Part shown: positions 53,243-57,673 of the stretch, in pieces
Position numbering within the stretch: the stretch's first letter is position 1
Layout of the letters: the number at the start of each line of letters is the position of its first letter
Assembly: GCF_004345675.1 (NCBI RefSeq)
Contig: NZ_SLWU01000003.1
Location: forward strand, 1-64,000
DNA from: Caldanaerobacter subterraneus
GTDB taxonomy: Bacteria; Bacillota; Thermoanaerobacteria; Thermoanaerobacterales; Thermoanaerobacteraceae
DNA: 64,000 nt
Direction of reading: 5' to 3'
Made by a program: the position numbers and the translations under genes
The notes under the pieces: model-generated
What the model saw: only the letters and a program-made list of their open reading frames with translations
Databases searched by the model: none
What the model was told of the DNA's origin: nothing

Positions 53243-54181
53243 TTAACTTAATATAGCGGCACCAATTATGCCGGCATCATTTCCAAGCTCAGCCTTTCTT
53301 ATGTCAGCATAGGGAAGTTCTTTAAAGAGTATATTTTCTGCCACTTCTTTTTTGAGAGGCTTTAAGAGGAAATCTCCCGCATTTGCAACCCCGCCACCTA
53401 ATATTATTACTTCCGGGTCAAACAGGTTTATTATGTTTACAATCCCAACTGCCAAATATTTTACATATTCCTCAAAAATCTTTAGAGCCTCCTCATCATA
53501 TTGTTTTGCAGCGTCTATCACATTTTTAGCAGTAATGCCCTCAATATCGCCATTTGCAAATTTTAAAATCAGAGTATTGGGATTTCTCTTAGCAGCTTTT
53601 TTCCCTTCCCTTATCAATGCAGTAGCAGAGGCATAGGTTTCAAAGCAGCCAATTTTGCCGCAGTTACACCTTATGCCATTATCCCCTATGACCATGTGAC
53701 CTATCTCCGGAGCAAAGTGATGAGCGCCGCTGTAAATCTTCCCATCCAGTATAAATCCGGAGCCAACTCCTGTCCCTAAAGTGATTGTCACAGAAGACTT
53801 TGAACCCCTCCCTGCTCCAAAAGTAGCCTCTGCTAGTGCCGCCACATTTGCATCATTTTCCATATATATCGGCAAATCAATGTATTTTCTTATCTCCTTC
53901 GCCAGAGGCACTTTTGTCCAGAACAAATTTACTGCTCTTATCACTATTCCCTTTTCATTGTCCGCAACTCCTGGAACACCAATTCCCATGGATTTTACGT
54001 CTTTTACGCTTATTCCCATCCTTTGAAGAAGCTCAAAACTCAGTTCTGCTATGTCTCTTGCAATTGCCTCATATCCTCTCTCAGGCTTGGTAGGCCTGCT
54101 ACCTGTAGCAATTATCTTGCCATCCTCTTCTACCAAGCCAACTGCTATGTTTGTTCCTCCAAGGTCAACACCTATCCTCAT
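53243..54181 (-). CDS. glcK: ROK-family glucokinase
   Basis: A 312-residue ROK kinase without DNA-binding domain: ATP motif IGVDLGGTNIAVGLV (3-17), catalytic Asp in MENDANVAALAEA (about 105), and zinc site CNCGKIGCFETYAS (about 168-181). It phosphorylates intracellular glucose (from beta- and alpha-galactoside or other cleavage) to glucose-6-phosphate. It is 16 bases ahead of the acyl-CoA synthetase. Upstream, an IS607-like element with tnpB sits between it and the PHP/hprK genes, so its promoter may be altered. A GGAGATGT ribosome site precedes its ATG. Confidence 0.9.
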   Translation of the reverse strand: MRIGVDLGGTNIAVGLVEEDGKIIATGSRPTKPERGYEAIARDIAELSFELLQRMGISVKDVKSMGIGVPGVADNEKGIVIRAVNLFWTKVPLAKEIRKYIDLPIYMENDANVAALAEATFGAGRGSKSSVTITLGTGVGSGFILDGKIYSGAHHFAPEIGHMVIGDNGIRCNCGKIGCFETYASATALIREGKKAAKRNPNTLILKFANGDIEGITAKNVIDAAKQYDEEALKIFEEYVKYLAVGIVNIINLFDPEVIILGGGVANAGDFLLKPLKKEVAENILFKELPYADIRKAELGNDAGIIGAAILS

Positions 54182-54198
54182 ACATCTCCTGGTTACCC

Positions 54199-54222
54199 AA
54201 ACTGTACAAAAATGTACAGTTT
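54199..54222. repeat. Perfect 10-bp hairpin before glcK
   Basis: AAACTGTACA (54199-54208) and TGTACAGTTT (54213-54222) pair around AAAA. No T-run follows in either direction. It may be a transposon-end hairpin or the 3' end of a small RNA. Confidence 0.8.
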
Positions 54223-54316
54223 AGATAGCTGGGGTATTTGTAGTCCGCCTTTCAGACTTTCCCAGCCCCAGCAGGCGGTTTTTGGGAAAGCCATAGCCCC
54301 TGCCCCAAGAAGCAGG
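54199..54316 (-). ncRNA. Candidate omega (guide-scaffold) RNA downstream of tnpB
   Basis: On the minus strand: hairpin CCTGC/GCAGG (54316-54299), then three interleaved helices: CTTTCCCA (54290-54283) with TGGGAAAG (54264-54257), CCGCCT (54278-54273) with AGGCGG (54250-54245), and GCTGGGG (54272-54266) with CCCCAGC (54234-54228), then the terminal hairpin 54222-54199. The nested order gives a pseudoknot, as in TnpB guide RNAs. It follows the tnpB stop directly. Boundaries and expression are unproven. Confidence 0.5.
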
Positions 54317-54327
54317 AACTCGCGCCC

Positions 54328-55779
54328 TTAAGGGTCTCTCCACTTACCCTGAATTAGTAATCCTTTCAGGGTAGAGAAGTCTCTTAATATCTTCTCAGGA
54401 GAGAGTGGTGTTACCACCGCTACCTTGAGAACTCGCCAGAAATTATAGGTACTAAAACTTGTTCCGTACAGAGGTTTTAGTACCCTTTCTGACTCACTCT
54501 CAAGGCTTTGTATGAGTTTTATTACTTTGTTTATCTCTTTCATGTGCTTTTTCTTTAAATGTATGTTTTTGACTGTTTTCTTTACATGGTCTTTTAATTC
54601 TTCTAATTCTTCTACAGTCAATGCGTTGAGAAACTTCATATAATTATCTGGTATCTCTTCCTGCAGTCCCAACCCTCTTCTTGCTATTACATAGGCTGCT
54701 GCTACATCTTTTGTTATCATATACTGCGGTGCATATTTCAACATCCCTATTATTGAGGTGTAAGAAGGATTGACTTCTATTACTTCTATCCCTTCTCTTT
54801 TTGCCAGTGTTTTTATTTTTGAAAGAAGTGATTTATAGCTAAAGCTATGCCTTATTCTCCTTGATTTTCTCCCTGAAAAGTCTCCTCTTTTGCCTTTGTC
54901 TTTTATTTCTAATCCCTCAATTACAATTGCTTTTCCTTTCTCTTTTGCTATCTTTACTATTTCATGGGCATATTGCCATCTGTAATATTCTTTTTTGTCT
55001 TTACTGCCACTTGTAAGCTCTGGCATTGGTATACTGCCATAACTTATTAGATTGCCCTTTTCATCTACTTCTGCCCATGATATGTTGTCTGGATATGCAT
55101 TTATGTCTATTCCTATGACTCCTTTTTCTTTTGTTATTTTTATTTCTGGATATTCTTCTTCAATAGCAAAATAGGCGTATATATTGCCATTCTTGAGTTT
55201 TAATTCTACAGAGTAAGGTATGTTTGATTCTGCAATTTCCTGCAGGAGTTCTCCTCTGCTCTTATTCTTTCTGCTCTTATTCTTTTTGTAGCCTGCTTCT
55301 ATTCTGGCATACACATATTTTCTTTCCCATACATTTATCCTTAAGAAAGTGCCATTTTTTCTTACTTCTATTCTTGTGTTGAGATTTCCTTTTTTGCTTT
55401 TATCTCCTCTTGAATAGAGATTTCCTTTTCTTCTTTCTTGCCACTTTGTTTTTAGCTTTTGATATTCTTTCCCATTTATATGGCGATTTTGAAGTTTTTT
55501 AAATAAGTCTCTTCCTCCAAAAATGACTTTCTTTGGATTATTCCCTAATTCCTTGGAGGATTCTAATACGCTTCCTGCTTTCATTATTGCGTCATCTACA
55601 TATCTTGAGTTTAACTCAAAAGGTTCCTGAAGGTCTCTTTTTAGCGTTTTTCTGTCATGGCCTTCTAGAAGCCTTTTATATGCATATCTCATGCAGGAGG
55701 ACCATCTTCTCATTAAGTCTAATACTATTTGTTTGTCTTCTTGGTTTAGAAAAATAAGTTTAGCCTGTATCACTATCAT
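54328..55779 (-). CDS. tnpB: TnpB-type RuvC nuclease lacking the zinc finger
   Basis: A 483-residue IS200/IS605/IS607 TnpB-type protein. RuvC residues are all visible: Asp225 in GVIGIDINAYP, Glu288 in VIEGLEIKDK and Asp358 in ITKDVAAAYVIARRG. The usual Cys4 zinc finger between the last two motifs is missing: VNPSYTSIIGMLKYAPQYMITKD runs straight through. In better-known TnpB the finger holds CxxC pairs and the protein cuts DNA using an omega RNA. I start at MIVIQAKL (55779) with AAAGGGG upstream; the frame is open further because the old TnpA tail is fused in frame. No tnpA helper is functional here. Confidence 0.85.
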   Translation of the reverse strand: MIVIQAKLIFLNQEDKQIVLDLMRRWSSCMRYAYKRLLEGHDRKTLKRDLQEPFELNSRYVDDAIMKAGSVLESSKELGNNPKKVIFGGRDLFKKLQNRHINGKEYQKLKTKWQERRKGNLYSRGDKSKKGNLNTRIEVRKNGTFLRINVWERKYVYARIEAGYKKNKSRKNKSRGELLQEIAESNIPYSVELKLKNGNIYAYFAIEEEYPEIKITKEKGVIGIDINAYPDNISWAEVDEKGNLISYGSIPMPELTSGSKDKKEYYRWQYAHEIVKIAKEKGKAIVIEGLEIKDKGKRGDFSGRKSRRIRHSFSYKSLLSKIKTLAKREGIEVIEVNPSYTSIIGMLKYAPQYMITKDVAAAYVIARRGLGLQEEIPDNYMKFLNALTVEELEELKDHVKKTVKNIHLKKKHMKEINKVIKLIQSLESESERVLKPLYGTSFSTYNFWRVLKVAVVTPLSPEKILRDFSTLKGLLIQGKWRDP

Positions 55780-55956
55780 GCTTTTTACCCCTTTCCCGTA
55801 AATTCTTGCTGCGAAAGACGCCACTATTGCTATTAGGTCCTCTGCCTTCTTCCTTTTGGTGTTCTAACTGGGGTTATTAATCCTTCCTTTTCCCAGTTAT
55901 TAATATAATTCTGCTTATATCATATAGCTCTTTAACTTTTTTATAGTTAATAACAT
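55777..55956 (-). pseudogene. Remnant of IS607-type TnpA serine recombinase
   Basis: From ATG at 55956 the frames read MLLTIKKLK, then (shifted) ELYDIS and (shifted) NWEKEGLITPVRTPKGRR, the MerR-like DNA-binding front of IS607 TnpA. Sixty bases on comes DLIAIVASFAARIYGK, which resembles its C-terminus. The catalytic recombinase middle, about 120 residues, is missing. At least two frameshifts and one deletion make it inactive. Confidence 0.72.
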
Positions 55957-55994
55957 TTATCATCACTCAATTAAAATTATATCATTTTTTACTA

Positions 55995-56747
55995 CTAATT
56001 CCAACTGTTTTGACCTCCCCCAATTCTTTTCCTCTTTTCTTGTAAGTATTGCTTTACTTTATCTACAGAAGTATTTAATACGAGCTCTTCTGGCATATTG
56101 ATGTCTTCTAAAAGCCTTATCGCCTCGTCAAACCGTCCTACGTCAAAGCATATGTGGGCATCACTTCCTACAGCCACTCTAACACCCATTTCCTTAGCTT
56201 TTCCGGCTATTATAGGGCATATTTTTTCACTGCCTCTTCTAGAGGTTACAAAAGAGCTGTTGTTTATTTCTATAAACTTGCCGTATTCTTTAGCAGCTTC
56301 AAGCACTCTCTCAATATCAATGGGATATATGGGATTGCCCGGATGTCCTATTATGTCCACATAGGGATTTTTTATGGCATTTATTAAAGCTTTAGTATTT
56401 CTCTCTACATCCTCACTTGGCTCAAAGCACTCATCGTGAAGGCTTGCAATGACAATATCCAGCTTTTTTAAAATCCTCTCAGGAAGGTCTATCCTCCCTT
56501 CCTCGTCCATTATATTGGCTTCCACTCCTTTTAGTATCTCCACCCCCTCTATTTTCTCAGGTATCACCTTTAAGTTCCCAAAGTAGTATATATGCGGACC
56601 TCCTGGCATTTCCGGTCCGTGGTCAGTAATGCATATAAGCTGAAGCCCCTTTCTAAAGGCTTCCCTGGCATTTTCTATAATTGTGCTAAATGCGTGCCCA
56701 CTGGCGATGGTGTGGGTGTGAGTATCTAGCACCAGCCTCAATTTCAT
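55995..56747 (-). CDS. PHP-domain phosphoesterase (YcdX type)
   Basis: About 250 residues of the YcdX/PHP class, with metal-binding THTHTIASGHAFSTI (near the start), ITDHGPEMPGGPH (about 42), ASLHDECFEP (about 108), DIIGHPGNPIY (about 132), FIEINNSSF (about 160) and GSDAHICFDVG (about 195). These supply the trinuclear zinc/iron-type site of the family, which hydrolyses phosphoesters of unknown physiological target. The start is uncertain: ATG 56747 sits directly on GGGGAGG, while TTG at 56741 has ideal spacing. It overlaps or abuts the hprK end, so both are co-transcribed. The C-terminal tail GGGQNSWN may have been altered by the adjacent transposon. Confidence 0.84.
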   Translation of the reverse strand: MKLRLVLDTHTHTIASGHAFSTIIENAREAFRKGLQLICITDHGPEMPGGPHIYYFGNLKVIPEKIEGVEILKGVEANIMDEEGRIDLPERILKKLDIVIASLHDECFEPSEDVERNTKALINAIKNPYVDIIGHPGNPIYPIDIERVLEAAKEYGKFIEINNSSFVTSRRGSEKICPIIAGKAKEMGVRVAVGSDAHICFDVGRFDEAIRLLEDINMPEELVLNTSVDKVKQYLQEKRKRIGGGQNSWN

Positions 56748-56755
56748 CCTCCCCT

Positions 56756-57673
56756 TCAATTTCCTATTTGCTTTAGAAGTTTTTTATTGAGCTCATGGGC
56801 TGCGTTGTAGCCCATCTGTTTCTGCCTATGGTTCATTGCAGCAACCTCTACAATAATTGCCAGGTTTCTTCCAGGTCGAACAGGGATGGTGAGCTTGGGA
56901 ACTTCCACGTCAAGGAATTTTATATACTCGTCCTCAAGCCCCAACCTGTCATAGTACTTGTCCTCATCCCACTCCTCCAGCTGAATTACCAAGTCTATGC
57001 TCATGCTGTTTCTCACAGAACCTACGCCGTATAAAGTTTTAACGTCCAAAATTCCTATCCCTCTTATTTCAATAAAATGCCTTATTATCTCAGGAGCACT
57101 GCCCTGAAGCTTGTCTTCACCTATTTTACGTATCTCCACGGCATCATCTGCCACCAGCCTGTGCCCTCTTTTCACAAGCTCCAGAGCTGTCTCGCTCTTA
57201 CCTATGCCACTTTCCCCTAAAAGCAGTACTCCTATCCCGTAGACATCCACCAGGTTTCCGTGAATGGTGATTTGAGGTGCTAGCTTCTCATCAAGATAGT
57301 TTATAAGCCTGTTTATAAACTTGGTGGAAGCCTCCTTTGTCCTTAGAAGGTATCTGTCGTGCTTTTTTGCAGCTTCTATTATCTCCTGCCTTATATTTAA
57401 ATCCCTCGTCACAATCAGACAGGGAATAGGGTATGCGAAGAATTTATCTGCCCTTTCTGCTAAAACCTCATCCGGAAGTTGCTCTACAAAAGTAGTTTCC
57501 ACTTTTCCCATTATCTGCACTCTCTCGTAGGCAAAGTGCTCGTAAAAGCCAGCAAACTGGAGCCCTGGCCTGTTGACATCGCTTGTAGTTATGTCTATCT
57601 TGTTATTTTCTGCTTCTACAATCACTTCCAAGTTCAAATCCTTTATCAGAGTTTCTACAGAGACCTTTTCCAC
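56756..57673 (-). CDS. hprK: HPr kinase/phosphorylase
   Basis: A 305-residue bifunctional enzyme: Walker A GESGIGKS (about 153-160), the family signature LVADDAVEIRKI (about 170) and EIRGIGILDVKTLYG (about 198). It phosphorylates Ser46 of HPr when fructose-bisphosphate is high, which lets CcpA repress catabolic genes, and reverses this when phosphate is high. It is thus the likely global controller of the sugar operons in this window. I start at GTG 57673, with GGAGGTG six bases upstream; earlier in-frame codons lack this. Its promoter overlaps that of birA on the opposite strand. Confidence 0.96.
   Translation of the reverse strand: MEKVSVETLIKDLNLEVIVEAENNKIDITTSDVNRPGLQFAGFYEHFAYERVQIMGKVETTFVEQLPDEVLAERADKFFAYPIPCLIVTRDLNIRQEIIEAAKKHDRYLLRTKEASTKFINRLINYLDEKLAPQITIHGNLVDVYGIGVLLLGESGIGKSETALELVKRGHRLVADDAVEIRKIGEDKLQGSAPEIIRHFIEIRGIGILDVKTLYGVGSVRNSMSIDLVIQLEEWDEDKYYDRLGLEDEYIKFLDVEVPKLTIPVRPGRNLAIIVEVAAMNHRQKQMGYNAAHELNKKLLKQIGN

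Follow-up and report, generated by a model that had tools for sequence, protein, structure and literature searches.

The window, that is, the whole 64,000-nucleotide stretch of Caldanaerobacter subterraneus DNA analysed here, carries on its minus strand an IS607-type element (54188..56013, the left end being placed at about 56013) from which most of tnpA has been deleted. Its borders were read from empty sites in relatives, where the uninterrupted sequence runs directly from GGGGGAGG into AGATGTATG; the element sits between a PHP-domain gene and a ROK glucokinase gene, in the glucokinase ribosome-binding site, with minus-strand junctions GGGGGAGG/TCAAAACAG on the left and AACCAGG/AGATGTATG on the right. 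Both junctions carry GG, as expected for IS607. Full copies have an IS607-type serine recombinase TnpA upstream of tnpB (L022 matches NF033518 transpos_IS607 with an E-value of 1.5e-68), and the same genome, which holds 16 right-end copies of the element, contains further intact tnpA copies in that position, whereas the window copy keeps tnpA remnants only. An IS200/IS605 origin was rejected because the TnpA partner is of the IS607 type and not a Y1 HUH transposase. A separate IS200/IS605-type element is present in this genome (L093, G000:C39), with a Y1 TnpA, a canonical zinc-finger TnpB and a different right end. The insertion has truncated the end of the PHP-domain gene (window 55995-56759, against 54188-56013 for the element), so that the transposon left end now supplies its last residues, ..GGGQNSWN and stop. 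Ahead of the ROK glucokinase ATG, CCAGG stands in place of that gene's own Shine-Dalgarno sequence.

The tnpB open reading frame (54328..55824, minus strand) encodes 498 amino acids from a GTG, the first residues being a fused remnant of tnpA. Matches to TIGR01765 and TIGR01766 relate the product to TnpB; PF07282 gives a weak match over the first 28 positions only, the guided_TnpB model stays below its cut-off, and no CxxC zinc finger (TNB domain) was found in the family sequences. An AlphaFold model, whose pLDDT was 60 at first and 74 with a deeper alignment, has AsCas12f (2.9e-11), ISFba1 TnpB (2e-6) and ISDra2 TnpB (5.4e-6) as its top Foldseek matches. The RuvC residues are D227, E290 and D360 (numbering of window:54331-55785), with D227 and E290 invariant in 31 sequences and D360 present in the close family; a nuclease-dead TnpB (a TldR-like repressor), suggested by the insertions at start codons described below, was rejected on the presence of all three in that close family. 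The third acidic position is His in five distant relatives, and in such TnpB-like proteins the site may be rearranged or inactive; His-for-D360 relatives occur in Bacillaceae, clostridial and Hermodarchaeota sequences (L171, L179, L180, L181, L184, L186). PADLOC model PDLC01039, named Csx1, matches this TnpB (54328-55785) at 3.3e-52 and looks like a mislabelled model.

The original prediction was that six words just beyond the tnpB stop codon pair as three mutually crossing helices, with hairpins on either side. The minus strand carries all six, ordered X1 Y1 Z1 X2 Y2 Z2 (54292-54228), with hairpin H2 (54320-54295) before them and hairpin H3 (54222-54199) after. The 5' arm of X (CTTTCCCA, 54290-54283, or GGCTTTCCCA, 54292-54283, in its longer form) pairs with TGGGAAAG (54264-54257; longer form TGGGAAAGTC, 54264-54255), giving a 10-bp helix in the window copy; CCGCCT (Y1, 54278-54273) pairs with AGGCGG (Y2, 54250-54245) and GCTGGGG (Z1, 54272-54266) with CCCCAGC (Z2, 54234-54228). 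Across relatives Y is dependable over five of its six base pairs and Z over six of seven. Any A-B-C-A-B-C triple with helices of at least 6 bp arose in 11 of 2,000 dinucleotide shuffles of the 118-nt stretch, and the native total of 21 bp was matched by one. Nested folding of the window copy favors Z (0.89) and yields almost no X (0.04) or Y (0.002); conservation of these two helices therefore requires a pseudoknot or else a switch between alternative folds.

Covariation among other copies, which had been named at the outset as a check on the pairings, was found. In an unfitted MAFFT alignment that covered 54 right ends of two genera, two-sided changes occur at 9 of 10 X pairs and 2 of 7 Z pairs, and Y is invariant at five of six. 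A protein-based search of named genomes then brought in wider relatives (Thermovorax, Fervidicola, Caldicoprobacter, Carboxydothermus, Aquificales and Thermus), and among 95 parsed right ends X, Y and Z occur in essentially every copy that bears the domain, all three pairings being retained, across bacterial phyla, in Thermoanaerobacter, Caldicellulosiruptor-like, Thermovorax, Caldicoprobacter, Carboxydothermus and Aquificales relatives. In 52 distinct 44-mers, which were anchored on the Y motifs and the best X register so that counts lean towards structure, 96.3% of pair cells are paired and there are 131 two-sided changes as against 30 +/- 4 in shuffles, a number equalled by none of 500; sliding the partner columns by one lowers pairing to 52% or less. 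Unfitted alignments agree with this picture for Y and Z.

The three helices are not equally well supported. X has the strongest covariation, with two-sided changes at eight of nine pairs in the 44-mers, and has been swapped wholesale many times (CTTTCCCA:TGGGAAAG, GAGTGCTTA:TGAGCACTC, GTTGTTCC:GGAACAAC, GGCAAGCCA:TGGCTTGCC, GGTGTGGATA:TATCCACACC). Z exceeds the shuffles by itself, with two-sided changes at six of seven pairs and variants such as GCTGGG:CCCAGC, GTTGGGG:CCCCAAC, GCCGGG:CCCGGC and GCCAGTG:CACTGGC. Y exceeds them only narrowly: it is CCGCC:GGCGG in nearly all copies, GCGCC:GGCGC in three from Aquificales (L131/L141/L143) and TCGCC:GGCGA in one from Clostridia (L127), which amounts to about two independent compensatory events, and there is one clear break (L118) and a sixth pair that is frequently lost. 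Linkers are nearly constant: in almost all copies Y1 follows X1 after 4 nt, Z1 directly adjoins Y1, and Z1 and X2 are 0-3 nt apart. Each helix of the proposed A-B-C-A-B-C arrangement is thus backed by compensatory change, Y being the weakest.

That this RNA would be the guide RNA of the adjacent TnpB was also part of the original prediction, and it is supported by position as well as by covariation, though over some 230 nt rather than 118. The predicted omega RNA scaffold (54188..54420, minus strand, ~233 nt) overlaps the last ~30 tnpB codons with its 5' half; its other end coincides exactly with the right end of the transposon, beyond which lies the flank that would act as guide. Over the last ~60 codons of tnpB, synonymous agreement between two genus groups is 0.70-0.89 where 0.33-0.37 is expected, and over the remainder it is much closer to expectation. 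The consensus fold of the tnpB 3' stretch has 41 pairs, 15 of them with two-sided changes, and consists of a branched 5' domain, the small hairpin H1 (54324..54336), which holds the tnpB stop codon, and H2 (AGTTCCTGC / GCAGGGGCT, 54295..54320), which covaries and exposes CTTGG (54309-54305) in its apical loop. AlphaFold predicts the C-terminal protein tail encoded by the RNA-overlapping stretch to be disordered. Downstream of X/Y/Z, H3 is a terminal inverted repeat that forms a perfect 10-bp hairpin, AAACTGTACA-TTTT-TGTACAGTTT (54199..54222), and also covaries.

Next to the guide stands CCAGG (54188..54192), whose GG is the IS607 core dinucleotide and which can pair with the H2 apical loop, making this a candidate for the canonical guide-adjacent pseudoknot of TnpB RNAs. 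The pairing, CYUGG with CCAGG, is possible in nearly all copies and shows no two-sided change in the counted set; being nearly invariant, it is thinly supported, though natural variants that keep it exist, namely CCAAG (L003), CUAAG (L174) and the loop CCUGG in Aquificales. The predicted guide, AGATGTATGAGGATAGGTGT (54168..54187), for which a length of 20 nt was taken from PMC11061315, covers the ROK glucokinase start codon. In the Aquificales copies L131, L132, L136, L141 and L144 the tnpB frame runs on across the entire omega RNA and reaches its stop within the right-end GTTAACCAGG. Rfam (15) gave no gathering-score match in the window or in relatives, RAGATH-18 included, and nothing relevant at E up to 10; open-licence papers yielded no description of an X/Y/Z RNA. 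Together, the location and the comparative data strongly support the view that an omega RNA for the element's own TnpB is encoded at the right end.

The insertion site is itself informative. At the left junction stands GGAGG (56014..56018, minus strand), the Shine-Dalgarno sequence of the target and a candidate TAM, and in most of 15 distinct cases the left flank ends in GGAGG or a near variant. Right flanks have a start codon and an open frame 2-14 nt downstream in 63 of 96 distinct cases, as against 17 in a control interval. In the ISFba1 group of IS607 TnpBs the TAM is AGGAG or GAGGG (PMC11061315), and GGAGG is thus likely to be Shine-Dalgarno sequence and TAM at once, so that a G-rich, TAM-like motif adjoins the left end as in other IS607-family TnpB RNA systems. 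We found no earlier statement of a link between TAM and Shine-Dalgarno sequence in the open-licence literature.

Copies of the module also occur without tnpB, a point outside the original prediction, as recovered by a covariance model that includes X/Y/Z, so that remnants lacking X/Y/Z would escape detection. In Caldicellulosiruptor-like genomes, 10 examined and an eleventh (L281), X/Y/Z and the hairpin stand alone between uxuA and a beta-galactosidase-like gene (L224-L231, L233, L234, L281); one of these genomes, G027, has no such TnpB. In a second genome family all eight genomes examined have between 2 and 27 copies each. Classification of 52 copies gave 8 full elements, 12 in which some of the transposon tip or of H2 survives, and 32 stand-alone modules, which lie directly before start codons. 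Orthologous leaders precede the gene for AmmeMemoRadiSam protein B in seven genomes and, among others, those for threonine aldolase, YjbQ, RadA and a ComEC-like protein; several groups are orthologous across genera (L218, L219, L284, L285, L335, L356, L359; L220, L331, L352; L341, L351, L362; L338, L349). Several of the stand-alone leaders belong to genomes that lack this TnpB, and they have no counterpart in Rfam. X continues to covary strongly in these tnpB-free copies, with 133 two-sided changes as against 44 in shuffles (37 distinct sequences), and differs wholly between some orthologs, as between L218 and L284.

Several of these leaders retain transposon ends at different stages of decay. 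In three genomes the tip ahead of one iron-alcohol-dehydrogenase-like gene is CCAGG, CCACG or CGAGG; L223 ends in GCACAGTTTGGGTTAAAAGG where intact ends have GCACAGTTTGGGTAACCAGG; and upstream of a DmpA-like gene one genome keeps tnpB and H2 and a relative X/Y/Z only. The idea that the tnpB-free copies are a free-standing metabolite riboswitch was set aside, since the downstream genes are unrelated and several transposon ends are decaying; exaptation is preferred for the same reasons. On present sequence comparisons the tnpB-free modules are apparently exapted IS607 right ends, and their existence shows that the module either has a TnpB-independent role or is able to gain one.

Conversely, some copies of the transposon have a reduced module or none. 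Four Aquificota copies with open tnpB (L142, L145, L147, L149) keep X as a plain hairpin only, the Y and Z arms having been lost together in this lineage; the domain is absent from the Caldicellulosiruptor-like copies L045, whose tnpB is open, and L052, and from Thermus copies. In L045 and L052 X/Y/Z are cleanly gone, with H2, the terminal hairpin and TAACCAGG still in place. Since tnpB stays open in such variants, the module is peripheral and is probably not essential for TnpB.

We consider it probable that these observations reflect an omega RNA scaffold bearing X/Y/Z as a peripheral knot, which directs target cutting, and a right end that is reused as a leader. The scaffold would extend from within the tnpB 3' end to the CCAGG tip, the next ~20 nt of flank serving as guide, and the RNA would be processed from, or transcribed through, tnpB. 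By analogy with ISDra2, ISXfa1 and ISFba1, the core recognized by TnpB would be H2 with its apical loop paired to CCAGG, and X/Y/Z would form a compact, probably heat-stable peripheral domain between H2 and H3. Were the three helices to form simultaneously, X and Z would most likely make an H-type pseudoknot with short A-rich linkers, with Y tying its two loops. Once bound to this RNA, TnpB would cut the empty, GGAGG-flanked allele and thereby preserve the transposon. Because insertion takes place in Shine-Dalgarno sequences, the downstream gene acquires the right end as its 5' leader, and after decay of the transposon X/Y/Z and the hairpin would repeatedly have been retained in that capacity.

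The alternative that survives best assigns the module mainly to the host gene. Here X/Y/Z and H3 would be a mobile 5' leader that keeps the interrupted gene expressed: insertion would otherwise silence the target, and the right end would supply a structured leader with AGG just ahead of the start codon; TnpB would have no need of it. The insertion sites speak for this, as do the persistence of the module where tnpB, H2 and the CCAGG tip are gone, in leaders orthologous across genera with X covarying, its presence in genomes without such a TnpB and its absence from some open-tnpB copies. Set against these are the position of the module, within what by analogy is the omega RNA scaffold, and the composition of the search model, by which remnants without the module go unseen. 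In its fullest form, which makes the X/Y/Z pseudotrefoil a mobile RNA leader in its own right, carried by IS607 within the guide RNA and exapted many times as a host leader that outlasts the transposon, we regard the proposal as a serious but minority reading; were it true, one RNA fold would be both a guide-RNA domain and a translation leader delivered by a transposon.

A switch is a somewhat weaker contender, which we regard as less likely than not. X, Y and Z would then be alternative pairings, for instance Z/Y in the long tnpB mRNA and the X pseudoknot in the processed omega RNA. That the nested fold prefers Z, yet X covaries most strongly, is as expected if different states matter, and the copies reduced to a plain X hairpin fit as well; the near-constant linkers, by comparison, are expected of one packed fold, Y and Z vanish together in the X-only lineage, and the A-B-C-A-B-C topology exists in real RNAs (51 of 1,939 sequences; PMC3390330). 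It is very improbable that the pairings are a feature of DNA, such as a recombinase-binding site or cruciform, and this reading was rejected on the ground that unrelated sequences have taken the place of X and still pair. H3, as the terminal inverted repeat, may double as a recombinase site, and the tip has a GG core, but X/Y/Z does not form an inverted repeat about the end, is also kept in mRNA leaders that lack transposon ends, and belongs to a region whose synonymous conservation reaches into tnpB. Chance complementarity or protein-coding constraint, the latter prompted by the Aquificales tnpB frame that reads through the RNA region, is scarcely credible, given that one shuffle in 2,000 reaches the native arrangement, that compensatory changes are far more numerous than in the shuffled and slid controls, and that the region lies beyond the stop codon in the window and most relatives.

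The preferred reading, an omega RNA with X/Y/Z as a peripheral knot, would add to TnpB guide RNAs an architecture that Rfam 15 does not contain, built on a rare interlocked fold and found in thermophiles with a long, zinc-finger-less TnpB. It would also link the IS607 TAM to the Shine-Dalgarno sequence: as the element lands between ribosome-binding site and start codon, its right end must serve both as guide RNA and as host leader. With tnpB-free copies orthologous across genera, this exaptation of a transposon end as a leader is directly testable.

Among known systems, the closest likeness is to the ISFba1-type IS607 TnpBs with RAGATH-18 reRNA, which share a serine-recombinase TnpA, an RNA at the right end and a G-rich TAM (AGGAG) beside the left end (PMC11061315). 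The ISFba1 RNA has two pseudoknots, one of which joins guide-adjacent bases to an apical loop, and its TnpB, like the one here, a D-E-D RuvC site (PMC11061315). The TnpB described here is longer (~485 aa, as against ~390 aa for the ISFba1 type) and lacks the zinc finger; its RNA overlaps the tnpB 3' end, which the ISFba1 reRNA does not (PMC11061315), matches neither RAGATH-18 nor any other Rfam family, and contains three mutually crossing helices. The reRNA of ISXfa1, also an IS607 element, likewise takes invariant transposon-boundary bases into its scaffold, and the part of the published account available to us describes a pseudoknot between guide-adjacent bases and the apical loop of a stem-loop, which mutation and rescue proved in that system, and no domain like X/Y/Z (PMC10711439). 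With the ISDra2 omega RNA there is a common right-end location, its guide-adjacent pseudoknot is of the kind that is a candidate here, and the peripheral, partly disordered stem 3 of that RNA is comparable in position to X/Y/Z; ISDra2 differs in being an IS200/IS605 element with a Y1 transposase, a TTGAT TAM and a canonical TnpB, and in having a triple helix instead of X/Y/Z (PMC10097598). No TnpB guide RNA with A-B-C-A-B-C topology was found described in the open-licence literature. The topology of X/Y/Z is that of the A-B-C-A-B-C 'pseudotrefoils', which are of genus 1 and rare among the RNAs of RNA STRAND (PMC3390330).
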